This document shows positions 20,281 through 62,059 of a stretch of DNA of 64,000 nt, one piece after another; within the stretch, counting starts at the first letter, position 1; every line of letters starts with the position of its first letter. Below the pieces are notes generated by a model, which saw only the letters and a list, made by a program, of their open reading frames with translations, was not told the DNA's origin and made no database searches. Both the position numbers and the translations under genes were made by a program. The DNA is from Coniferiporia sulphurascens (Eukaryota > Basidiomycota > Agaricomycetes > Hymenochaetales > Hymenochaetaceae), in assembly GCA_002794785.1 (NCBI GenBank), contig NBBA01000009.1, positions 1-64,000 of the forward strand, given 5' to 3'.

Positions 20281-23146
20281 GATCCCAACTCACCCTCTGG
20301 GTGTGCAACTATTATGGCATGCACCCCCTGGATTGAGAGAATGCCTCCTCCCAGTACCCAGGTGAGTCCTTTTTGTTTTCACTCCCCTTGGTGCTAGCCA
20401 CCACTCTACTCATGGCAGGCAACTTCAACCGTCACCACCACATGTGGTCCGAATTCTCAGTCCCATGACAAGACAATTTGGGGGCACAACCCCTTGATGA
20501 CTACTTCCGTGGACATGGCCTGGCCCCTGCCCACCTCCCTGACTCTGACTTGCGGCCCAATGGCACTCAACGTTGTTGCCCCATTGACATGATCTGGGCC
20601 CCACCTGCAGTTAACCCCGACTCTATTCTAGACTCGGCTACCTCCGACCCTTCACCATTGTCCGACCACGCCATCCTGCGATGGTCACTGCCATTTCGGC
20701 CCCCCCCTCCTGCCCTAAAGACACACTGGCTGCTACCAGCTGACAAGGAGGAATGGACTGACATCGCCTTCCCTCTACTCGAAGAAGCCTTCTGCCTACT
20801 GGGGCTTGACACCCATGCCCTAGACATCAAAGTGAAGGCGGTCGTTGACTCTATGGTCGCTGCCCTACAGCCGTTCACCCGCCTCTCCAAGCCATCGAAA
20901 ACGGAAGTCCCATGGTGGTCAACCCACTGCAAGACCCTCCTATCCGCCATTACAACGGCCACCACCCCCCTCCAGTGCTCCTCAGCTAGACGCACCTTCA
21001 AAAGAGGCATTAGGACGGCCAAACAGCAGTTCTACACTGACCAGGCAGTGGAAGCGGACGCCTACAACATCTGGAACTGGGCCAAGTGCGGCCTTGGAAA
21101 CCGACCCACCCCTATCCCCTCACTAAAACGACATGACGGCTCCTTCACCCAGACGGACGAGGAGAAAGGTGAGCTATTCCACAATACTTTCTTCATGCCC
21201 CCTCCACCTCAGGCAGTGGCCAACACCCCACCGCCACTGCCCCAACCGGCTGCCCTGCTCATCCTCCTCGCAGAGCTTACAGGGCCACTGGCCGACACAT
21301 CCAACTTGTCAGCTCCAGGCCTCTCAGGAATAGGTTACTGCCCCCTTAAATGGGTGGTGGACGCCTACCCCGATGAGATTCTCTCGCTTTTCAATGACTG
21401 TCTTCGCTTGGGGCACCACCTCGAGTGTTGGTGGATGGCAAAGGTGGTGATGCTCAGGAAGCCAAACAAGAAGGACCCCTTCTCGCCATGCTCATACCAG
21501 CCCATTACACTCGAGGAGACCCTAGGGAAACTCCTCAAAAAGATTATTGCTAACCAGCTCCAGTTCCTCACTAACATGTGGGACTGGTTGCCACCCAACC
21601 AATATGGGGGGGCGTCAAGGCCATTCGGTCTATGATGCCACCCAACACCTTTTACAGATTGCGGAACGAGCCCACTCAGAGGGCCTTGTCTGCTCGGTCC
21701 TAGTGGTCGACATCCAGGGCTTCTTTGACTTGGTTCACCCCCAACTCCTCCACCAGCAATTGCTGGACCTTGGTTGTGCACCCAACATGGCCAACTGGTG
21801 CTTGTCCTTCATGACGGATCGGCAGGTCGTGGTCACTTTCGATGGCACCACCCTCCCTACCACACCCAAACCTGACTTCGGAACCCCCCAAGGATCGCCA
21901 GTCTCCCCCATCCTGTCAATGATATTCGCAGGTGTGGTCCTCCGGCGCTTTCAACAAGCCGGCACCACCACCTTAGCATATGTCAACAACCATTTACTAA
22001 TCTGCATAGGTCCCTCAGTGGCATCCAACTGCTGCACCCTCACCTGCGCCTACCACCAACTCGACACCCTCTTCGGCACCATCGGTCTCAACATCAAAGC
22101 AGCCAAGATGGAGTGCCTCCACTTCCATCCTCCTTGGCAATGTACCAGCTATGACAGCTGGGACACTGCCAGGGTCCAGGTCGACTCCAACACCCTGATC
22201 TGCCCCTCAATCCCATTAAGATGGCTGGGGATATGGTGGGACCCAGGCCTCTCCTTTAAGCCCCATGTTGAGCGCATGCGCTCCAAGGGGCTCTCTACTC
22301 TCGCCGCCCTCCGCATTCTTGGCAACACACAATGCGGCATCTCGGCCCTCCTCCTCCGCCACCTATACACCTCCTGTGTCTGCTCAGTCCTTTCCTGGGG
22401 AGCACCAGTCTGGTACCATGGCCACCACCAAAAAACCCTGGTAAACTGCCTACAGACTGTGCAAAACACAGCCTGCTGGTGGATTCTGGGAATCTTCAAA
22501 GGTGCCTCCCCCCATTCCACCAATTTCCTTTGCTTGGTTCCCCCTCTCTCTTTCTATTTTGAATATATAAAGACCACCCATTCCCTGTGCCTTTGGCACA
22601 CCCCTCACTCTATTGGCTGAAAACTTTTTAAAAACGTAGCTAATAGACCTTTCTCCCTTTCTCTGCAGGTCTGAGCCCCATGGATTCAACAGGTCCCTGC
22701 ATACACGCACCCCCCATGGATGGACCCCCTGGCCTTTACGAATGGCCAAGTCCATTTCACCACCCCCATCACCCCAGTCAGCGCCGACACCCGCAAACAA
22801 TTTGTGAGCGCCGCACGAGCCTTAGGCTCCACCCCACACATCCAAGTATTCACAGATGGCTCATGCATCGACAACAAGTCGGGCTCTGCCATTTGTGCAA
22901 TGCTGGGCCCCACCCGCCTCCAGTCACGCCAACTGGAGTCCCCCAACTGTGCTACAGCCATGGACACTGAGGAGTTCTCCCTTGCCACAGCCCTGGGCTG
23001 GGTAGTGCACCGCCTCCCAGCGCAATTGTGTGTCGCATCAGACATCTTCTTTCTGTCCGATTTGCTGACTGCTCTGCACCTTTTCCACACATGGACCACC
23101 GCCCCCGCGCCCACCTCCTTCACATATGGAAAGCAGGTGTGGAGAC

Positions 23147-23705
23147 TGTTAAGCTCAACGGGTACACGGTGATCAGCATCAGGGCTTCCTGATCATCAGG
23201 GCTGGTAGTATGGCAATGGGGCTTCCTAGATGTCATAAGTCAAAGATGATCGGCGATGGGGCTTCCTGATTGGTGATGTGGATGCGGTAGGCTTCTGTAG
23301 TGAGTTGGGTTATGACAAAGCAACTAGTGGCACACTGGCGCACAGTAGACTGGTGGTAGCAGATAATGGGCTTGTATGAACAAAGAGCACAAGCTTAGGG
23401 CTTGTGCTACTGAAGTTACATGCTTATATGCTACTCTATGTGTTTGCTACTGTAGCAACTTGGTTAGGTGTGTTTACCAGACTAAGGAAGGTCATGGAAA
23501 CTCAAGGAAGGCCTTGGTAATACAAGTACGGTGATCAGTAAGCAAAGCACGTCATCATGGTGCAAGAAGGCGTCATCATGGCATCTTATGGCGCAAGGCG
23601 AAATAAGGATGAGTAAGTCAGAGAAATGGGGGAGTTGCGCTGACTGATGATGACGAAGAGGAAGTGAGTCAGCGCAGTAAGGAAAAGTAAAGGAAAATTG
23701 TAACA
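23147..23705 (-). repeat. 3' LTR of element A (559 bp)
   Basis: Differs from the 5' LTR at about 21 positions by eye: 19 transitions, about 16 of them CG in one copy against TG or CA in the other. This implies an old insertion followed by CpG deamination. Confidence 0.92.
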
Positions 23706-23718
23706 TTGCCTCCTGTTT
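23706..23718 (-). promoter_or_regulatory. Probable polypurine tract of element A
   Basis: On the minus strand AACAGGAGGCAA directly precedes the 3' LTR, the place where plus-strand DNA synthesis is primed. It is purine-rich but short, so only a tentative call. Confidence 0.4.
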
Positions 23719-24175
23719 AGGATCGACAAGTCACCGAATTGTCAAAATAAAATATAGAGATGAGTTCAACAAAAAGAGGAAAAGAATCCAGGTGTATCAA
23801 GATGCCAGCTTGGCAGGTCTTTAAGTGTAATGCCAAGTTCACTGCAGAGTTTGTTACCATGCTCTTTGGTACCTAATCCAGGTCTTTCACCAAAATTAAT
23901 GGTATAATGTCTGAGGACAGTGAAAAAGTGGAAAAAAGATGCAAAAAGAATCCCTAACCTGGATTGCAAGTCATATTAACCTATAGGGCCAAGTGAAGGC
24001 CAATAAACGATAAGGAAAAGGCAAGCTGCCAACAAAGACAATAACAAGCAGGGAAATGGGTGTAAAAATTTGAAGAGAAACGCACTAGTGGGCCTTTTAA
24101 GGTCGTACCCAGGAGTAGTAGTTTAGGGTCGTTGCGGACACACGCTAGTTTTCTGTCATTGCGGACTAGGATCCC

Positions 24176-25472
24176 TCAGTTAGATTGGTCATTGTTATTT
24201 GACCCCATATCAACATCGTCAATGTTAATACCAGCTGCAATGTCGTCCATGTATGACTGGAGTAGAATGCGGGCCCCTAGATCAGAGAGGCATACCGTGC
24301 GTCTACCATTTGGTGCATTTGCTGGTGATGGTGGTCTGTTCTCATCCGGAGTGGGCGTTTGTTCTTGTCCATGTTGAGGACATTCGCCGGGAGGATGACG
24401 GGGTGTGGCCTTTTTGCACCATGGGCAGGTGTACTGCACACAGTGAGTGGTAAGGTGTGCAGGTGACAGACATGTGGAGCAATGTGTGCGTGAGGACGTC
24501 GAGGACGATGACTGGGACGGGGGTGGGGCTTGAACCGGGAGCGGTTCGGTCTGAGTTGTGGAGTTGCAACAAGTGACTGCCGGGGATGACGGAACCGTTG
24601 GGACGAGTGGGGGAGCTGGTGCAGGACGGTAGAGATGCGCTTGAGGATGAAGAGGAATGAGTATGGTGTGAATACCCTCTTCTTCGAGCGCCTCATAGTC
24701 TGTGTTGCATAGCAGTCGGAGATTGTCAACCAGATTACTTAGTCGTGAGTCCAGCATCTCCGTTATCTCCTGCGTGTGCCATGCCAGGCGTTGCATGTCC
24801 TCCAGTGTCCATAGGCGTTGGCGCATCCGGTTGATCTGGTGTGACCTGGGGTGGGTGGAGAGAATCCGGTTGACATCTGTATCCAGGTCTGGGGCTGCGA
24901 GTACGTGCTGGAGGATGGTACGCGGGAGGAGGGGTGCGGTTTGCCGGTTCAGGTTGTGTACTGGGTACCGACGACGGGTTGCCAGGTGGTGATGGCGTCG
25001 GTACTCGGCGCTGGTCCCGCTGTTCCTGGGCTGTGAGTGCGAGCTCATGGAAGAGAGTTGCCTGGTTATGCAAATTGGTGAGGTGAAGGAGTAAGTCGAC
25101 AGAGGGTAGGTCTGTGTGGCTTAGCTGGTTTTCTAGACCCTCAATTTCGAACTCAATTTCAGTGAGATCTGAGGGTTGGATGAAATCTTCTGGGAAGGTG
25201 CATCGGAGTTGTTTGATGATGTCCTGGCGAGTGGGAGCGGATCTGTGGGGTTGGTACTCCTGGTGACGGATTTCGATCGGTGGATTTTGAATCGGAAGAG
25301 TTGGAGAGAGCGGTCAGCGATTGGCAACGGTGGGGTATCGGATGTGTGGGGTGCGATGGGTGCGAGCCTGGATAGTGGTGGTGAGAGCACAGACGAAGAC
25401 GAATAGTCCGCTTGGTATGGCAATGGCAAGGTACCACAGGTGGTTGTTGGTGGTAATGTAGGCGGTGGGCAT
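24176..25472 (-). CDS. Third ORF of element A: predicted membrane-anchored, zinc-knuckle accessory protein (frame-broken)
   Basis: Lies between integrase/chromodomain and 3' LTR on the sense strand. The ATG at 25472 starts MPTAYITTNNHLW, followed by a hydrophobic span (about residues 13-31, LWYLAIAIPSGLFVFVCAL) and a basic stretch, the pattern of a single membrane anchor. After a TGA at 25314-25316 the same frame continues with an acidic, amphipathic part (LTEIEFEIEGLENQL; LHELALTAQEQRDQRR). Coding character then passes to the frame open from 25048 to 24176: INRMRQRLWTLEDMQRLAWH, LDSRLSNLVDNLRLL, a Pro/Ser linker, CSTCLSPAHLTTHC (CX2CX4HX4C), CPWCKKATPRHPPGEC (CX2CX6HX4C) and an acidic tail. 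The change of frame is either a mutation or recoding. No known family is recognised; an env-like role is only suggested by position. Confidence 0.6.
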
Positions 25473-25499
25473 AGAAGGGGAATGTAGAGCGGATGAGGT

Positions 25500-28400
25500 T
25501 TAGGTGATTTTCTTGAGGTTTTTATACATGTCTAGGATGTCGGAAGCATGTGAAAAGTCTTTTTCGGCGAGCCATTGATTTTCGGAAGACGGGTATCCGG
25601 TCCACTTGACTAGGAAACGCCGTCTGTTTCCAGCGCCCTTGTGTGAGAGAATAGCCTCGATTTCGTATTCCTGCTGATCTTCTATCAGGTCAGGTGGCGG
25701 TTGACTGAATGGAGGTCCGTGTGCGTTGGTCTCCGAGTATGCTGAAAGAAGTGAGGCGTGGAAAACAGGGTGTATACGCCATGCCTCGGGTAATTTGAGG
25801 CGGTAATTCAGGGGTGATAGTACCTGAATTATGGGAAACGGTCCCTCTCGTTTAGGTGACAATTTGCGGGATCGGTTGGGGAAATGCAAGTTAGTGGCTT
25901 CTAACCAAACTTTGTCGCTGAGTTTGAATGGTTTGAAGCCTCATGCTCCGAAACGTGCCATATGGGCGTGGGCTAAATCATGGGTGGCGAGTGCTTCCTT
26001 TCGGATTGATGAAAGGAGGCACAGGCGCTGTGAGAGAGACGGGAGATCGGTATCTTCTATCACCGCGGGAATGGGTATAGGGTTGTATCCTAGCATGATG
26101 GTGAACGGTGAAGTCTTGGTGACTGAATGGGTCTGGATATTGTGTGAGAATTCCAGGTCAGTGAGTGAGTCAGCCCATGAGTGAGGTGATGTGCCGCAAT
26201 AAATGCACAGATAAGCTTCGACTTCCTGGTTGGCGCATTCAGTTTGCCCATCGGTTTGAGGGTGATATGCCATGGATAGTTTCGATTTAATCCCGAGGCA
26301 TTTGCACAACATTTGGAAGACTTGTGATGCGAATTGGGGTCCTCTGTCCGAGATGATACGTTTGGGGAGTCCGAAACGTCGGTAGACATTGTCATGGTAA
26401 CACTTCGCTGTTCCGAGTGCGTCAATAGTTTTGTGACAAGGAATGAGAATAATTCCTTTGGAGGCGTCATGATCTACGACTACCATGATGGAGTTGTATC
26501 CGTTTGACATGGGTAAGTCTGAGATGAAGTCCATGGATACCAATTGAAACGGGAGCATTGAGGCATCTGCGGGTATCGGGAGCATTGGTGGCTTGGTTGG
26601 ATGTGTGTTGATTTTCATCTGTTGGCACGCAGCGCATCCTTTGATGTAGTTTCCTACAAACACCATTAAACCGGGCCACCAATAGTGTTGTCACACCAAT
26701 TGGGAGGTTTTGAATACCCCTGGGTGTCCGAATAATGGGAGATCATGGAACATTTGTAAGATTTCCCGTTTGATTTCCGTGTTGCCTGGTATGTATACCC
26801 GTTTCTGGTATCGGAGGAGACCGGAGTCGATAGTCCAATCGTCAAGCGAGAATCGGAAAGGAGACGGGATTTTCAAAGCCCATGCGTCCTGAATCGTTTT
26901 TGCGAATGAATCCCCTTCCTGAGCTTCTCGAATGCAGTTCAGGAGATCCACATTGATTGTTCCGATAAACAAAGTTTTTGGTAGCATAATACGTTCTTCT
27001 AGTGGTTCTTCACCATGATCCGGGCGTCTGGATAGCGCGTCAGCGCCTGGGATGGATTTTCCTGGGCGGTGGGTGATTACACAGTTGAACTGTGAGAGGA
27101 ATAAATTCCATCTCGATTGTCTCGGGGTTAAGCGACATTCGGATCTGAAGTATGATAGATTTTTGTGGTCGCACCAAATCGTGGTTGTGTGTGGATTGCC
27201 GAGGAGGTAGTGGTGCCATGCTTCAAGGCCATGTATTATCCCTAGGAGTTCTCTGTCATAAACTTCATACTGCTGTTGGGCCGGTCCGAATGTTTCCGAA
27301 ATGTATCCGCATGGCTGTAAATCGCCATTTGAATTTGTCTGGTAGAGTACTGCTCCAGAGGCCACCTTCGATGTGTCTGTTTCGAGGATAAACGGTTTGG
27401 TGGGATCAGGTACGAGTAGGGCCGGTTTATCAAGGAAAAGTGTTTTAAGCTTTGTAAACGCTTGGTCCCGTTCAGGTGTCCATTTCCATTGCTCATTAGT
27501 GCAGGTGAGTTCATTGAGCAGGTATACAATATCCGAAAAACTGGGGATAAAATGTCTGTAGTAATTGCAGAATCCCATAAAGCTTTGCAGCTGTTTGACG
27601 GTGCGTGGGGTAGGCCAATCGGCAATTCCTGCTAATTTGACAGGGTCCATGTGGATGTTATCTGGGGTGATGATCATTCCTAGAAATTCGATGCATTGTA
27701 CCCCAAATAAGCATTTCTCCGGTTTGCAATAAAGATCATTGGCTGTGCAGATATCAAGAATGTGGCAAGTGCACTGGTAAAGTTCTTCCATTGAGTTGGC
27801 TAGGATGAGTATGTCATCCATGTATATCAAGGTTCCGTCTTCAAGAATTATGAAATGGAAGGTGTCGTCCATGAAGGCCTGGAATGTGGCAGGTGAGTTG
27901 CATAGTCTAAAGAACATAATGGTTGGTTCAAAAAGTCCTCGAGGAGTTTTAAAGGCGGCTTTCCATTGATCGCCATCTTTTATCCGAATGTTGTTATATC
28001 CCGATCTGAGGTCAAGTCTTGTAAAATACTTGGCTCCTTTGAGTTTGTCCATGAGATCGCTGATTAGAGGTAATGGGTACGCATTCTTAATGGTTCCTTC
28101 ATTTAGAGCTCGGTAGTCCTGACATCCTTGTAGGCTCATGTCCTTCTTTCCTACAAAGAAAAAAGGAGATGCCATGGGTGATTTGGATGGTTGAATGTAG
28201 CCTTTGTGTAGGTTTTCGTCTAGGAATTCATCCAGTGCTGCCAGTTCTTTAGGTGCCAGTGGGTAGACTTTACAGTCGTGTGGTATGAAATCCAGTTTGA
28301 GATCAATGGCGTGGTCATAGGGTCTGGAGATTGGGAATCATTCTGCCGATTTTTTGCGAAAGATGTCGAGGTACCGGTGGTATTCAGGGGGAATTAGTTG

Positions 28401-28847
28401 TTCCACAGGCTTTGTTTCTTTAACCTGTTCCTGAGCGAGTGAGGTAGCGGTAGTAACTTTTGCGATAGCAAGAGTGCCTTTTTGCCAATCAATAACCGGA
28501 TTATGGTTTTTTAACCATGGTAGGCCAAGGATAACGTCTTCCTTGCCTAGAGAAGTTACAAGTAACTTTAGGGGAAGTGATTTCCCTTTGATGCGAACCA
28601 GTCGCCAAGTGTACTTGGTGATGGTTCCATGTTTGTTGGTGGATCCATCTGCATTAAGAACTGTAATGGGATGAGCAAGTGTTCGTGTTGGTATGCGATG
28701 CTTGATGACGAATTTGGCATCGATGAACTGGCCTTCAGTGCCAGAATCGATGAGCGCATTGGTGGGGATGGTTTTGTCATAGACAATCATAGAAATTGGG
28801 ATCTTCATTGCAGGGAGTGAAGGATCGGAATTTACAATTGGAGACAT
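25500..28847 (-). pseudogene. pol: Element A pol: protease, RT, RNase H, integrase, chromodomain
   Basis: One continuous frame of 1115 codons, interrupted only by TGA at 28338-28340, 26691-26693 and 25941-25943. Order: aspartic protease (ALIDSGTEGQF); RT with LDLRSGYNNIRI, FRLCNSPATFQAF and catalytic IYMDDILI; RNase H (LETDTSKVASGAVL, YEVYDRELLGII, HKNLSYF, GADALSRR); integrase HHCC zinc finger (FHD..GHPG...GCAACQ) and DDE core ([25 protein letters not shown]); chromodomain (YEIEAILSHKG, FLVKWTGYPSSENQW). At the first TGA element B has Arg (CGA), at the second Arg (CGT). The start MSPIVNSDPSL is 38 nt after the gag stop and in another frame. Confidence 0.92.
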
Positions 28848-28885
28848 GGTAACAGGAAGACTTAATGTCCGTCTAAGCTTCCTCT

Positions 28886-30190
28886 TTAAAAACCCTGCTT
28901 GTCCAGGATGTCAAAGATCTCATCTTTCTTCATCTCGTCAAATTGATTGAGGAGATTATGGATGCTCACCGTGATATGTTCGGGAGCTTGGTTCTCCGGA
29001 TTGGACTCGTTTGTCTCGACAATTGGGAATGTGTTATTGATGGTACGGACCGTGCGTTGTTGGCTGGGTCCCTGTTGGTACTTGGTACAATCGCAAGCGT
29101 TATGGCCTTTCTCTCTACAGGCCAGACAACGTCCTTCGTGCATGCACTTTGCACGTTCCTCCTCGGAGAGGCGTGGTGGACGATTTGTAGTGTTTCCCTG
29201 TGCGCCACGTTGGTTTGGCTGGTAAGGTCGATGTTGCTGGTTGTTTCCGAGATTGCGGAAACGATTCTCTTGTTTAATGGGAGCTTGTCCCGGGCCACGG
29301 AGGGCCTTGAGTCTTTGGTAGACTGCGTCTTGTTTGGAGGCCTCTTGGTACCATTCTTCGATGGTAGAGGGTGTCTTGGTACTTGCTAGGACGCATGCGA
29401 GAAGGCCATGTCTGAGGCCTTTCTCGTAGATGGGGATGAGGTTGTTGTCCCCTGACATGCCTGCTCAGGTTATGAGGGACTGGAAGCGGCTGTTATAGTC
29501 GTCAGCCGACCCCGTTTGTTGGAGCGTCATGATCTCTTGGGAGGCTTCGGCAACATCATTGGTGGTGATGAACGTATTGCGGAAATCGCATTTGAAATCT
29601 CCCCACGTGCCATATCCGACGATGGTGGTGAGGGTCTTGCTGTTGGGGTCTTTGGCGAGGGCGGACACGAGTGTTTCGCGGTTGATGGCCCAATCTCCTG
29701 CAGTCCCTGTCTGCATATAGGAGAGGACAAAGTTGACTTTCAACTCATCGGTAGTGTATACGTGGTGGTTGATGTGGAGGTATGCTTCGCAGCTGGATAG
29801 GAAGCATCTAGCGTACTTTCGGTCCCTGTCGAAGATGTTGGGGCGGGCAAGGTTGATCTCCTTAGGTACTGGTTGTGACATTTGAGGAGGTGGTGTCTGA
29901 GTTTTCGGGAAGATGGTTCAGTAGTTGGGTACGTTTTGTACAAACGTAAGGTGTGCATCCTCAGCGTCGTTGGCTTTGAACCACTGAAAATCTCCATTGG
30001 TGTTTTCTAACCACAAGTAGTAGTCAAAATCGTTCGAGTTGGTCTGTTTCTTTTTAAAGCACTTGAGGTCGTGGTCCCAGGTTCCTCCTACGAGAGGGTA
30101 GACGGGCTGTAGTTGGGCTAGTTTCGACAGGTTGGGCAAAGGGTTTGGTGCTTGGACATTGGATACGTCAGCAAAAAAATTTGGGAAAGC
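28886..30190 (-). pseudogene. gag: Element A gag: capsid-like and zinc-knuckle nucleocapsid
   Basis: An N-terminal part (30190-29918, LQPVYPLVGGTWDHDLKCF, LWLENTNGDFQWF) resembles the start of element B gag. TGA at 29918-29920 is followed in the same frame by the capsid-like region (MSQPVPKEINLARPNIFDRD, GYGTWGDFKCDFRNTFITT, DDYNSRFQSLI) to TGA at 29465-29467. The remainder, to the true stop at 28886, has CLACREKGHNACDC (CX2CX4HX4C). Gag forms the particle and binds the RNA. No in-frame ATG is clear upstream of 29881, so the start is uncertain. Confidence 0.8.
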
Positions 30191-30197
30191 TTGTGCT
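30187..30197 (-). promoter_or_regulatory. Self-primer binding site of element A
   Basis: On the minus strand AGCACAAGCTT begins 2 nt after the 5' LTR. It is the exact reverse complement of AAGCTTGTGCT in the LTR at 30439-30449, the predicted 5' end of the transcript. This is the Tf1/sushi arrangement, where the transcript primes its own cDNA. The same site occurs in element B at 37392-37402. Confidence 0.7.
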
Positions 30198-30199
30198 AG

Positions 30200-30758
30200 T
30201 GTTAAGCTCAACGGGTACGCGGTGATCAACGTCGGGGCTTCCTGATCGTCAGGGCTGGTAGTACGGCAATGGGGCTTCCTAGATGTCATAAGTCGAAGAT
30301 GATTGGCGATGGGGCTTCCTGATCGGCGATGTGGATGTGGTAGGCTTCTGTAGCGAGTTGGGTTATGACAAAGCAACTAGTGGCACACTGGCACACAGTA
30401 GACTGGTGGTAGCAGATAATGGGCTTGTATGAACAAAGAGCACAAGCTTAGGGCTTGTGCTACTGAAGTTACATGCTTATATGCTACTCTATGTGTTTGC
30501 TACTGTAGCAACTTGGTTAGGTGTGTTTACCAGACTATGGAAGGTCATGGAAACACAAGGAAGGCCTTGGTAATACAAGTACAGTGATCAGTAAGCAAAG
30601 CACGTCATCATGGTGCAAGAAGGCGTCATCATGGCGTCTTATGGTGTAAGGTGAAATAAGGATGAGTAAGTCAGAGAAATGGGGGAGTTGCGCTGACTGA
30701 TGATGACGAAGAGGAAGTGAGTCAGCGCAGTAGGGAAAAGTAAAGGAAAATTGTAACA
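30200..30758 (-). repeat. 5' LTR of element A (559 bp)
   Basis: Sense strand reads TGTTACAATTTTCC... to ...GAGCTTAACA. Retains more CpG than the 3' LTR in its terminal ~210 bp. Contains the promoter elements listed separately. Confidence 0.92.
30439..30481 (-). promoter_or_regulatory. LTR promoter: TATA box and predicted transcription start
   Basis: On the minus strand TATAAGC (30481-30475) lies 32 nt upstream of AAGCTTGTGCT (30449-30439), a normal TATA-to-start spacing. The start is inferred from the 11-nt complementarity to the primer-binding site. The box and start are embedded in the inverted repeat AGCACAAGC / GCTTGTGCT and are kept in most or all solo LTRs of the window. Confidence 0.6.
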
Positions 30759-31072
30759 GAGACCCTGCTGGACTCATACCCCCAGCTCACCATTCATTTT
30801 GTATGGTGCCCCGGCCACTCAGACATCCCCAGCAATGAATGGGCTGACATGGAAGCGAAACTGGCGATGGAGCTCCCTCCATCTGACCTCAAGCCCTCCA
30901 CCTCCACACTAAAGGAAGTTGCTGTCCACACCCTCATGGATCGGTGGACCCTCTCACTCACACGCCCCTTAGCCTCAACCACTGATAAGTACCTGGTGGT
31001 CCACGGCATCCCCACACACCGACCTAGAAAGCTGCTCATGCATTTGGTCGACCACCCACGAACTGAGCTATC

Positions 31073-37391: not shown

Positions 37392-37402
37392 AGCACAAGC
37401 TT
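37392..37402 (+). promoter_or_regulatory. Self-primer-type binding site of element B
   Basis: AGCACAAGCTT, 2 nt after the LTR end, identical in sequence and spacing to element A although the LTRs differ. Confidence 0.6.
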
Positions 37403-45166: not shown

Positions 45167-47878
45167 ACACCACCCCAACCAGCTGCCCCACCTATACTCT
45201 TATCGGAGCTTATGAGGGCACTGGCCGACACATCCAACTTGTCAGCACCAGGCCTCTTGGGAATAGGCTATCACCCCCTGAAATGGGTGGTCGAGGCCTA
45301 CCCCAATGAGATACTCACGCTTTTCAACGACTGCCTCCGCTTGGGGCACCACCCCGAGTGCTGGCAGGTGGCAAAAGTAGTAATGCTCAGGAAGCCAAAC
45401 AAGAAGGATCCCTTCTCACCGCGATCTTACTGGCCCATCACCCTTGAGGAGACCCTAGGGAAACTCCTTGAAAAGATAATCGCTAACAGGCTCCAGTTCC
45501 TCGCTAACACGTGGGACTGGCTGCCACCTAATCAATATGGGGGGCATCAAGGCCATTCGGTCTATGATGCTGCCCAACACCTTTTACAGATTGCAGAATG
45601 CGCTCATTTGGAGGGCCTTGTCTGTTCGGTCCTAGCGGTCGACATTCAGGGTTTCTTCGACTCGGTGCACCCCCAGCTCCTCCACCAACAACTGTTGGAC
45701 CTCGGCTGTGTGCCAGACATGGCCAACTGGTGCCTGTCCTTCATGATGGACTGGCAGGTCACTGTCGCTTTCGATGGCACCACCCTCCCTACTGCCCCCA
45801 AACCAGACTTCGGCACCCCCCAGGGATCACCAGTCTCCCCCATCCTGTCAACGATATTCGCAGGCATGGTCCTCCAGTGCTTTCACCAAGCCGGCACCAC
45901 CACCCTGGCATATGTCGATGACCACTTACTTATTTGCATAGGTCCCTCTGTGGCATCCAACTGCCACACTCTCACCTGCGCCTACCAACAACTAGACACC
46001 CTCTTCAGCACCATCGGTCTCAACATTGAAGCAGCCAAGATGGAGTGCCTCCATTTCCACCCCCCTTGGTGACACACTGGCTATGACGGCTGGGACACTG
46101 CTGGTGTACAGGTCGATCCCAACACCCTGATCCACCCCTCCATCCCACTCTGGTGGTTGGGGATATGGTGGGACCCAGGCCTCTCCTTCAAGCCTCACAT
46201 CGAATGTATGCGTTCCAAGGGGCTCTCCACTCTCGCCACCCTCTGCATCCTGGGCAACACCCAACGCAGCATCTCGGCCCTACTCCTCCACTGCCTATAT
46301 ACCTCCTGTGTCCGCTCCGTCCTGTCATGGGGAGCGCCAGTATGGTACCATGGCCGCTGCCAAAAAACCCTGGTAAACCGCCTCCAGGCTGTGCAAAACA
46401 CGGCTTGTTGCTGGATTCTGGGCGTCTTCAAAGGCGCCTCCCCCCATTCCACAAATTTCCTATGCTCCATTCCCCCTCTCTCTTTCTATCTCGAATATAT
46501 AAAGACCACCCATTCTCTATGCCTTTGGTGCACCCCTCACTCTATTGGCCGTAAACTTTTTAAAAACATAGCTAACAGACCTTTTTCCCTTTCTCTGCAG
46601 GTCCGAGCCCCTCAGGTTCAACAAGTCCCTGCATACATGCATCCCCCTTGGATGGATCCTCTGGCCTTTACCAATGGCCGGGTCCGATTCACCACCCCTC
46701 CCACCCCAGTTAGTGCCGACACCAGAAAACAGTTCGTGAGTGCTGCACATGAGCTCAGCTCCACCCCCCATGTTCAAGTTTTCACGGATGGCTCCTGCAT
46801 AGACGATAAGTCGGGATCAGTCATCTGTGCCATGCTCGGCACCACCTGTCTCCAGTCTCACTGACTGGAGTCCCCCACCCACACTACTGCCACAGATGCT
46901 GAGGAGTTCTCCCTTGCCACAGCTCCGGGCTGGGTAGCACACTGCCTCCCGGCACAACTGCATGTCGCATCAGACATCTTCTTTCTGTCTGATTCGCTGA
47001 CTGCACTCCACCTATTCCACACATGGGCCACCGCCCCCAGCACCCATCTCCTACACATCTGGAAAGTGGGTGTGGAAACTCTGCTGGACTCATACCCCCA
47101 GCTCACCGTTCATTTCGTATGGTGCCCCAGACACTCGGACATCCCCAGGAATGAATGGGCTGACATGGAAGCAAAGCTGGCAACAGAGCTCCCCCCATCC
47201 GACTTAAAGCTGTCCACCTCTGCACTAAAAGAAGTCGCCATCCGCACCCTCATGGACTGGTGGACCCTCTCGCTCACCTGCCCCCTCGCTTCAACCACTG
47301 ACAAGTACTTGGCGGTACATGGTATCCCTTCTCACCGACCTCGGAAGCTACTCATGCACTCAGTTGACCACCCCTGAAGCGAGCTAGCTGCAGTCGCACA
47401 GGTCCTCTGTCGTGCTGGTCCCTATGGGGGCTACTGGTTGAGTTTTGACTCAGCCTACCAGCACAGACATGGCCTTATCTTGCACTGCAGGTGGCACAAC
47501 CACCCCCCATGGCCCGCACAGTCGACCGCCCACATCCTTGGCGGCTGTATCACCTTCCACCTGTGGATACAATGTGTATGGCCACCTCAGGACCCTCCCC
47601 CAGTCCACCATTCAGAGTGGGCTGATGAAAACTGCCTCCTGGTGCTGCACCATTGGCTCAAGCTGACGGGGCACTTGAACCGCCTCTCCGACAGGACCAC
47701 AGGCGCCATATGACTGGCTTTTGCTGCGATGGACCTGGACAGCCACCCAACTGATGAGGATATGGACCTGGACCTCCTTCGGGACTACATGCATTGTATG
47801 CTTGGACCACAAACCCAGGATTTGGACCCTGCCCTTTTGGAGCTATCAGGTACGACTCCTCCTTTTCCTTCCAATTAG
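45167..47878 (+). pseudogene. LINE ORF2 (L12): RT with intact YVDD, RNase H, C-terminal domain
   Basis: 45212-46072 is an open RT: LGKLLEKIIANRLQFL, LAVDIQGFFDSVHP (motif A), DFGTPQGSPVSPILS (B), LAYVDDHLLICIG (C, both Asp intact). TGA at 46070-46072, then 46157-46864 thumb, linker with an intact Arg (QVRAPQVQQ) and RNase H start (VFTDGSCID), TGA at 46862-46864, then SDSLTALHLF, WCPRHSDIPRNEWAD, and the C-terminal domain with shifts near 47390 and 47710. Confidence 0.83.
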
Positions 47879-59629: not shown

Positions 59630-62059
59630 GTGACCCTAGGGAAACTTCTTGAAAAGATAATTGCTAACCGGCTCCAGTTCCTCGCTAACACATGGGACTG
59701 GTTGCCACCCAACCAATATGGGGGGCGCCAAGGCCATTCGGTCTACGACACTGCCCAACACCTCTTACAGATTGCGGAGCAGGCCCACTCAGAGGGCCTT
59801 GTCTGTTCGGTCCTAGCGGTCGACATTCAGGGCTTCTTCGACTTGGTTCACCCCCAACTCCTCCACCGGCAATTGCTGGACCTTGGTTGTGCACCCAACA
59901 TGGCCAACTGGTGTCTGTCCTTCATGACAGACCAGCAGGTCGCTGTCGCCTTTGACAGCACCACCCTCCCCACCACACCCAAACCCGATTTCGGCACCCC
60001 TCAAGGATCGCCAGTCTCCCCCATCCTGTCAACAATATTTGCAGGGGTGGTCCTCCAGCACTTTCACCAAGCCAGCACCACCGCCCTAGCATATGTCAAT
60101 GACCACTTACTAATCTGCATAGGTCCCTCAGTGGCATCTAACTGCCGCGCCCTCACCCATGCATACCACCAACTTGACACCCTCTTCAGCACCATAGGAC
60201 TTAACATCAAAGCTGCCAAGACAGAATGTCTCCACTTTCACCCCCCTCAGCGACACACTGGCTATGATGGCTGGGATACTGCCAGGGTCCAGGTCGACCC
60301 TAACACCCTGATCCACCCCTCAATCCCATTGCGTTGGTTGGGGATTTGGTGGGACATGGGCCTCTCATTCAAGCCCCATGTCAAGCACATGCACTCCAAG
60401 GGGCTCTCCACTCTCGCCACCCTCCACATCCTGGGCAACACCCAATGCGGCATCTCGGCCCTCCTCTTCTGTCGCCTGTACACCTCCTGCATCCGCTCTG
60501 CCCTATCCTGGGGTGCACCAGTTTGGTACCACAGCTGCCACCAAAAAACCTTGGTAAACCGCCTCCAAGCTGTGCAGAACACGGCCTGTCACTGGATACT
60601 CGGCGTCTTCAAGGGCGCCTCCCCCCATTCCACCAATTTCCTTTGCTCCATTCCTCCTCTTTCTTTTTACTTTGAGTATATAAAGACTACCCATTCTCTT
60701 TGCCTCTGGTGCACCCCCCACTCTATTGGCTGTAAACTCTTTAAAAACATAGCTAACAGACCTTTTTCACTTTCTCTGCAGGTCCGAGCCCCCCAGGTAC
60801 AACAGATCCCTGCATACATACATCCCCCATGGATGGACCCCCTGGCCTTCACAAACAGCCAAGTCCACTTCACCACTCCCATCACCCTGGTCAGCGCCGA
60901 CACCTGTAAGGAGTTCATGAGCACCGCACAGGCCCTAGGCTCCACCCTCCACGTCCAAGTATTCACAGACAGCTCTCGCATCGATGACAAGTTGGGCTCT
61001 GCCATCTGCACAATGCTAGGCCCCACCCGCCTCCAGTCACACCGACTGGAGTCCACCACCTGCGCCACTGCCATGGATGCCGAGGAGTTCTCCCTCGCCA
61101 CAGCCCTGGGCTGGGTAGCATGCCATCTCCCGGCCCAACTGTGTGTCGCATCGGACATGTTCTTCTTGTCTGATTCGCTGACTGCCCTACACTTTTTCCG
61201 CACGTGGTCTGCCGCCCCCGGTGCCCACCTCCTTCACATCTGGAAGGCGGGTGTGGAGACCCTGCTGGACTTGTACCCCCAGCTCACCATTCACTTTGTA
61301 TGGTGTCCTGGCCACTTGGACATCCCCAGCAATGAATGGGCTGACACGGAAGCGAAACTGGCTATGGAGCTTCCTCCATCCGACCTAAAGCCCTCCACCT
61401 CTGCACTAAAAGAAGTCGCCATCCATACCCTCATGGACTGGTGGACCCTCTCGCTTGCACAACCACTTGCCTCAACTGCTGATAAATACTTGGCAGTTCA
61501 CGGCCTCCCCTCACACCGACCTCGAAAGCTGCTTATGCATTCGGTCGACCACCCACAATCTGAGCTATCAGCAGTCACTCAGGTCCTCTGCCATGCCGGT
61601 CCCTATGGGGGTTACTGGCTGAGTTTTGACTCAGCCTACCGGCGCAGGCATGGCCTGATCTCGCATTGCAGATGGCACAACCACCCCCCATGGCCCGCAC
61701 AGTCGACTGCCCACATACTAGGCGGCTGCAGTACATTCCACCTGTGGATACAATGTGTATGGCCACCTTGGGACCCTCTCCCAGTCCACCACTCCGAGTG
61801 GGCAGATGAAAACCGCCTCCCGGTTTTGTGCTGCTGGCTAAAGCTGACAGGGCACCTCAACCGCCTTTCTGACCACGCTGCAGGCGCCATCCGGCTGGCC
61901 TTCGCTGTGATGGACCTAGACGGCCACCCAACCGACAAGGATATGGACCTGGACCTCCTACGGGATTACATGTGTCATATGCTCAGACCTCGAACTCAGG
62001 ACTTGGACCCAGCCCTGTTGGAGCTCTCAGGTATGCTTCCCCCCTTTCCTTCTGATTAG
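59630..62059 (+). CDS. LINE ORF2 C-terminal part of L16: RT, RNase H, C-terminal domain (809 open codons)
   Basis: The longest open frame in the window. RT motifs: LGKLLEKIIANRLQFLANTW, LAVDIQGFFDLVHPQ (motif A), DFGTPQGSPVSPILS (B), LAYVNDHLLICIG (C; first Asp changed to Asn). Thumb WLGIWWDMGLSFKPHVKHMH; linker QVRAPQVQQIPAY with Arg intact; RNase H VFTDSSRID, AEEFSL, SDSLTALHFF, WCPGHLDIPSNEWADTEAK; C-terminal domain CRWHNHPPWPAQST, HHSEWADENRLPVL, DKDMDLDLLRDYM, GMLPPFPSD. It has no start of its own: a one-base loss near 59590 separates it from the upstream part. Confidence 0.88.
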   Translation: MTLGKLLEKIIANRLQFLANTWDWLPPNQYGGRQGHSVYDTAQHLLQIAEQAHSEGLVCSVLAVDIQGFFDLVHPQLLHRQLLDLGCAPNMANWCLSFMTDQQVAVAFDSTTLPTTPKPDFGTPQGSPVSPILSTIFAGVVLQHFHQASTTALAYVNDHLLICIGPSVASNCRALTHAYHQLDTLFSTIGLNIKAAKTECLHFHPPQRHTGYDGWDTARVQVDPNTLIHPSIPLRWLGIWWDMGLSFKPHVKHMHSKGLSTLATLHILGNTQCGISALLFCRLYTSCIRSALSWGAPVWYHSCHQKTLVNRLQAVQNTACHWILGVFKGASPHSTNFLCSIPPLSFYFEYIKTTHSLCLWCTPHSIGCKLFKNIANRPFSLSLQVRAPQVQQIPAYIHPPWMDPLAFTNSQVHFTTPITLVSADTCKEFMSTAQALGSTLHVQVFTDSSRIDDKLGSAICTMLGPTRLQSHRLESTTCATAMDAEEFSLATALGWVACHLPAQLCVASDMFFLSDSLTALHFFRTWSAAPGAHLLHIWKAGVETLLDLYPQLTIHFVWCPGHLDIPSNEWADTEAKLAMELPPSDLKPSTSALKEVAIHTLMDWWTLSLAQPLASTADKYLAVHGLPSHRPRKLLMHSVDHPQSELSAVTQVLCHAGPYGGYWLSFDSAYRRRHGLISHCRWHNHPPWPAQSTAHILGGCSTFHLWIQCVWPPWDPLPVHHSEWADENRLPVLCCWLKLTGHLNRLSDHAAGAIRLAFAVMDLDGHPTDKDMDLDLLRDYMCHMLRPRTQDLDPALLELSGMLPPFPSD

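Follow-up and report, generated by a model that had tools for sequence, protein, structure and literature searches.

Elements A and B, two Ty3-type long terminal repeat (LTR) retrotransposons in a 64,000-nt stretch of the genome of Coniferiporia sulphurascens (positions 1-64000 of contig NBBA01000009.1, C9; hereafter the window), are best explained by Tf1/sushi-like self-priming: going by their sequence, it is very probable that the 5' end of their own RNA primes reverse transcription. Central to this reading is a pair of 11-mers in element A, in which AGCACAAGCTT, the putative primer-binding site (PBS) 2 nt inward of the 5' LTR, is the exact complement of AAGCTTGTGCT within the same LTR (30197-30187 and 30449-30439, respectively, on the minus strand); the latter begins 32 nt after TATAAGC, counted from start to start (30481 to 30449). 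Both relations had been claimed in a first-pass annotation of the window and are borne out, as is its statement that element B keeps the PBS with the same 2-nt gap: the same 11-mer, at 37392-37402, again follows CT. The 5' LTR of A terminates with ...GCTTAACA at 30200 (minus strand), followed by CT and the PBS, and the complementarity spans exactly 11 bp, with mismatches immediately outside it on both sides in A as well as in B. The self-priming of Tf1/sushi style that the annotation had proposed is supported by this exact pair, by its fixed distance from the TATA box, by the finding of no fitting transfer RNA (tRNA) among those checked, and by the chromodomain and SH3_Tf2-1 domain of element A (Table 1).

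Taken by itself, an 11-bp pair is only mildly unusual, because some 11-bp inverted pair with more than 60 nt between its halves also arises in 16 of 1000 sequences obtained by mononucleotide shuffling of the A LTR and about 40 nt more. What lies beyond chance is the placement of the pair, 32 nt from the start of the TATA box at one end and beside the LTR end at the other, together with its retention in 46 of 47 A elements and five of five B-type elements. The PBS itself occurs 15 times in the window at no more than one mismatch (1.35 expected), and exact matches in the genome searched (39.3 Mb, 31 contigs) number 568 + 588, versus 10 + 9 for the reversed control.

The A elements were collected with anchors that left both 11-mers free, consisting of TATAAG, a gap, the LTR end TTAACACT, 11 free bases and TCC, which returned 47 elements (26 + 21; controls, 1 + 0). 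The exact pair is present in 46 of them, at a spacing to TATA of 32 in every case (46/46), and the sole exception, at C1:253338, has a PBS that reads GGCACAAGCTT and retains a G-U pair. A separate search for the exact pair gave 52 places (controls, 0), 46 of which overlap the 47 A elements and six of which fall outside them. The matching test for B-type elements found five (controls, 0), all with the exact pair at spacing 32; the window's own B, which is without the TATA part, does not belong to these five. The spacing from TATA to the 11-mer is 32 in all 51 elements (46 A and 5 B-type), and the stretch that reaches from the first base of the 11-mer to 2 nt beyond the PBS measures 251-268 nt in A (46 elements) and 213-214 nt in B; as this stretch varies while the TATA spacing is constant, the distance to TATA is the fixed one.

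Wherever a PBS is present, the two 11-mers hardly vary. When LTR copies were collected irrespective of a PBS (100 of 223 matches inspected; controls, 22 + 17), at least three of A type proved to have a changed 11-mer (C1:4834257, C2:744131 and C3:1464820), all three without an adjoining PBS, and two LTR copies in the window carry one change each in the 11-mer. Averaged over 30 distinct LTR copies, taken from the window and other loci, conservation amounts to 0.994 in the 11-mer and likewise in the segment from -48 to -33, 0.987 in +12 to +36, 0.952 in -12 to -4 and 0.884 in the LTR as a whole. Between A and B, identity is about 66% in reverse transcriptase (RT) and 56% over LTR plus leader (514 aligned columns); their longest unbroken identities are a block of 23 nt comprising the LTR end and PBS and a block of 15 nt at the 11-mer, the next longest measuring 8 nt. 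Eight of 20 upstream pieces of individual loci (L numbers in Table 1) likewise hold both 11-mers in full, with TATA at 32 nt; in a further piece, L069, an A-type LTR lies next to a B-type PBS, and L083 begins past its element, the pair of which the anchor search locates at C6:881496.

In the proposed mechanism, the RNA would start at AAGCTTGTGCT, set by the TATA box that begins 32 nt upstream, and its first 11 nt (AAGCUUGUGCU) would fold back about 250 nt in A, or 200 nt in B, onto AGCACAAGCTT. The potential for this pairing is evident from folding, all 11 pairs forming in nine of nine leaders (seven A, two B) with a mean probability of 0.94-0.95. By analogy with Tf1, the RNase H of the element, the enzyme presumed to release the primer in A, would cut after nt 11, and the freed 11-mer would prime minus-strand DNA. 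The retained primer would then be copied during plus-strand synthesis, so that the PBS would be renewed from the 5' end of the RNA and the two 11-mers would stay matched.

Element A is a Ty3-type chromovirus. Its LTRs, each 559 nt long and bounded by TG..CA, show 21 ungapped differences between them, and the interior encodes, in pieces, gag, protease, RT/RNase H, integrase, SH3_Tf2-1 and a chromodomain, the last two with domain scores of 67.9 bits (cut-off 30) and 41.9 bits (cut-off 25.1), respectively. The Ty3 polyprotein is the top-scoring solved sequence for the protein of A, and its nearest RT proteins come from Coniferiporia weirii (80%) and Phellinidium pouzarii (71%), both members of the Hymenochaetaceae. 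An extra frame of 314 amino acids (window 24176-25120, minus strand), Cys-rich in its second half and without a Pfam match, lies between the chromodomain and the 3' LTR.

Table 1 Features of elements A and B, in window coordinates, and upstream pieces that hold the complete 11-mer pair
Feature	Position	Strand	Remarks
Element A, Ty3-type insertion, LTR to LTR	23147-30758	minus	LTR pair, TG..CA ends, GAGAC duplication, protein pieces
Target site duplication GAGAC, 5' side	30759-30763		perfect 5 bp; partner at 23142-23146
5' LTR, element A	30200-30758	minus	
TATA box TATAAG (TATAAGC from 30481)	30476-30481	minus	begins 32 nt upstream of predicted RNA start
U3 arm AGCACAAGC of U3/R-border palindrome	30453-30461	minus	predicted by folding to pair with the 11-mer within one RNA
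Self-primer AAGCTTGTGCT, predicted first 11 nt of RNA	30439-30449	minus	
2-nt gap CT, LTR to PBS	30198-30199	minus	
PBS AGCACAAGCTT	30187-30197	minus	predicted duplex with 5' 11-mer, mean pair probability 0.95
RT + RNase H frame, element A	26691-28337	minus	RVT_1 and RT_RNaseH matches, 26691-28175
Integrase C-terminus, element A: SH3_Tf2-1 + Chromo	25500-25940	minus	domain matches at 25503-25940
3' LTR, element A	23147-23705	minus	holds second 11-mer copy (23386-23396) and its U3 arm
PBS of element B	37392-37402	plus	same 11-mer, same CT gap after LTR remnant
Upstream pieces with complete pair, B type			L070, L073
Upstream pieces with complete pair, A type			L082, L084, L085, L086, L087, L088

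Self-priming has been described for Tf1 and Tf2 and inferred or proposed for other LTR elements, which we compare here on the basis of passages of the cited papers. In Tf1, the first 11 nt of the RNA are complementary to the PBS and RNase H cleaves between nt 11 and 12 (PMC7175516); Tf1/sushi elements carry a chromodomain, and a three-duplex RNA pretzel is reported for Tf1 and other Tf1/sushi RNAs (PMC10085805). Self-priming has been proposed for Tj1 of Schizosaccharomyces japonicus, the PBS of which is complementary to the RNA 5' end (PMC4600332), for Tcn1 of Cryptococcus neoformans (PMC7175516) and for the majority of the Tcn1 clade of mosses and club mosses (PMC6317226). As far as these descriptions go, the elements studied here resemble Tf1 and Tf2 of Schizosaccharomyces pombe in the 11-nt complementarity between predicted 5' end and PBS and, for A, in the chromodomain and a Tf2-1-like SH3 domain, and they resemble Tj1, likewise a fission yeast element, in a PBS that matches the predicted RNA 5' end. 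They differ from Tf1 in that, compared with its three-duplex pretzel, A shows no consistent flanking duplexes and B shows one. With Tcn1 they have in common that self-priming is proposed, whereas the RT of A is nearest to the Coniferiporia weirii and Phellinidium pouzarii elements.

Two features of the Tf1/sushi group are found here: A has a Ty3-type pol with a chromodomain at the C-terminus of its integrase, and the PBS is complementary to the LTR at the predicted RNA 5' end in the 46 of 47 A and five of five B-type elements counted above. The hallmark of tRNA-primed Ty3/gypsy elements, a PBS that begins with TGG and matches a tRNA 3' end, is seen in neither A nor B when 16 distinct tRNAs are considered. 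Judged by these sequence features, A and B in all likelihood join the known self-priming elements by mechanism; formal membership of Tf1/sushi is likely, with a pretzel that is present only in part.

Several observations weigh against self-priming or lessen the force of the evidence for it. The copies share descent, so that 51 of 51 does not equal 51 independent tests and the independent weight rests on the comparison of A with B, in effect a single one. Among A copies the 11-mer is not alone in being conserved, as its window ranks 30th of 550 along the LTR, and because the 11-mers hardly vary there is no covariation between them, which leaves that prediction of the first-pass annotation neither supported nor refuted. 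The complete pair is missing from 12 of the 20 upstream pieces, some of which simply miss the LTR, and L071 and L072, assigned to the B group by RT, show neither 11-mer site in theirs. Folding adds little alone, because a perfect 11-bp helix would form in almost any leader; the presumed RNA start rests on TATA spacing. The flanking pretzel duplexes are inconsistent in A, where 14 tests on seven copies gave two values of p ≤0.05 (L082 and L088), at different places. In B, the duplex adjacent on the upstream side has a free energy of -14.3 (p 0.010 and 0.000 in two copies), and the downstream one is not significant. Nor does a second, inner helix between +12..+36 and the LTR end exceed shuffles as a rule, 1-30 of 60 shuffles reaching it in the nine leaders.

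A further point of this kind concerns the tRNAs themselves: the genome has 61 tRNA matches, of which 30 loci were taken, and these reduce to 16 distinct sequences rather than the whole set. This is what speaks for priming by a host tRNA, be it with its 3' end or in the form of a half molecule, at AGCACAAGCTT or close by, with an incidental match to the LTR 11-mer, which we nevertheless regard as extremely unlikely. The annotation had held that no tRNA needs to be invoked, and among the sequences compared the best tRNA 3' end agrees with the site at just 5 of 11 positions, in keeping with that view; the best internal stretch reaches 8 of 11, a value equalled by 201 of 300 permuted 11-mers. TGG, the complement of CCA, which would mark the start of such a site, does not occur in the first 60 nt past the LTR in A or B, and priming by a tRNA would leave unexplained both the fixed TATA distance of the LTR copy and its retention together with the PBS in two diverged families. 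It is also very unlikely that the 11-mers are kept for some other reason, for instance as two copies of a motif bound by Gag or another protein, or as a packaging or dimer signal, with priming proceeding differently. The self-complementary AAGCTT would suit a dimer signal, the segments from -48 to -33 and from +12 to +36 are about as conserved as the 11-mer, and A is without significant pretzel flanks; yet the pairing is exact, antisense and limited to 11 nt by mismatches just outside it in both families, one copy lies at TATA+32 and the other occupies the PBS position, to which a primer has to anneal, and the two blocks that contain them are the longest unbroken identities between A and B.

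The predicted start is also straddled by AGCACAAGC-CCTAA-GCTTGTGCT, which makes the border between the unique 3' (U3) and repeat (R) regions a 9-bp palindrome in A and a bulged stem in B. In all 32 copies examined (30 A-type, two B), the U3 arm and the 11-mer share 7-10 pairs, and the 40-nt U3/R segment is stable relative to dinucleotide shuffles in both elements (A: z -4.2, 1/2000 as stable; B: z -4.5, 0/2000). When RNAs with two copies of the 11-mer are folded with the arm in place, the PBS pairs with the 5' copy (0.94 in A, 0.94 in B) and the 3' copy is left at 0.0; when the 3' piece starts from +1 without the arm, it is the 3' copy that wins (0.98 vs 0.002 in A, 0.83 vs 0.14 in B). In the case of B its 5' LTR stood in for the 3' LTR, and the joined test RNA is short in each case, so that these probabilities give a direction and not real rates. 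Varying the RNA start in the nine leaders gives mean probabilities for the priming helix of 0.94-0.97 from -10 to +1, 0.19-0.97 at -14 and -12, 0.04-0.83 at -20 and 0.01-0.39 at -30, the effect being weak in L084, L085 and B unless the RNA starts at -20 or -30.

From this modelling one may tentatively propose a start-site lock, in which RNA that bears the arm, as in the 3' LTR copy or after well-upstream starts, hides the primer and starts at about -10 to +1 free it; we consider it possible but doubtful. As folded in silico, the hairpin of U3 arm and 11-mer could plausibly bar the 3' LTR copy and upstream-started RNAs from the PBS; if true, it would single out the correct one of the two identical primer copies that the genomic RNA carries and inactivate RNAs with a wrong start. 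No such U3/R hairpin is described in the titles, abstract openings and selected passages of the self-priming literature on which we draw. We lean slightly towards another account, according to which self-priming is right but the palindrome, without any part in how the RNA folds, is no more than a core-promoter DNA motif or a relic of template switching by which U3 acquired a copy of the PBS. The identity of TAGCACAAGC in U3 arm and PBS region, seen in A, is the kind of trace expected from such copying, and at -12 to -4 the arm shows lower conservation than either the 11-mer or the TATA region. Substitutions among A copies go both ways, some preserving pairs (C to T at -4, A to G at -6) and others disrupting them (-5, -11 and -12; +7 in two copies), so that they do not demonstrate selection on arm pairing. 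At least eight pairs arise in 181 of 2000 shuffled upstream 20-mers, a weaker control, and two other regions of the B LTR have 40-nt windows that are as stable or more so. A purely DNA-level or historical origin sits less easily with the stem of B, which keeps the energy of that of A (-14.4) despite a different arm, in which an extra base bulges out, another base is missing and further outer pairs are present, and with a U3/R segment that is far stabler than dinucleotide shuffles in both families and, in A, matched by no other 40-nt window of the LTR.

Beyond the A and B groups, the distant RT groups (30-43% identity; L074-L081 and L089), scanned in + orientation, yielded at the TATA position no group-specific 11-mer whose complement follows downstream; this is no evidence of different priming, because their LTR and PBS are not delimited. 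A-type LTR pieces are present in the upstream pieces of L074 and L079. L089 has a one-mismatch match at offset 38-39, and at about 620-1210 of its piece (C12:576500-577110, minus strand) an LTR-like unit can be made out by eye, with the start TGTCAGGAATCC and the end TACCTGACA, followed by GTTTCTGATC and an ATG frame; no A-type self-primer was seen in this unit when it was likewise read by eye. A dispersed repeat with TATAAGTAAGCTGATTTTATATC... measures about 290-303 bp between LTR-pattern anchors (for example C3:1887052-1887351, C7:745415-745714 and C2:790157-790456).

The window contains additional LTR copies elsewhere. Two RVT_1 frames on its plus strand (45212-46072 and 59630-62059, the second with RNase H) differ from the Ty3 RT of A, and copies related to them recur across the window, broken up by A-type LTRs. 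Across the genome, the in-frame stops of RT copies are nearly all TGA (by hand tally, roughly 169 TGA vs 6 TAG and 2 TAA), an excess that would be expected if CGA codons decay via C-to-T changes at CpG.

In summary, tRNA-free self-priming is likely in abundant elements of a basidiomycete, in which dozens of natural copies, falling into two diverged families, can be compared. Should the start-site lock be true, it would suggest how the RNA uses the primer copy at its 5' end rather than the identical copy near its 3' end, and the choice of transcription start would be linked directly to the ability of the RNA to transpose.
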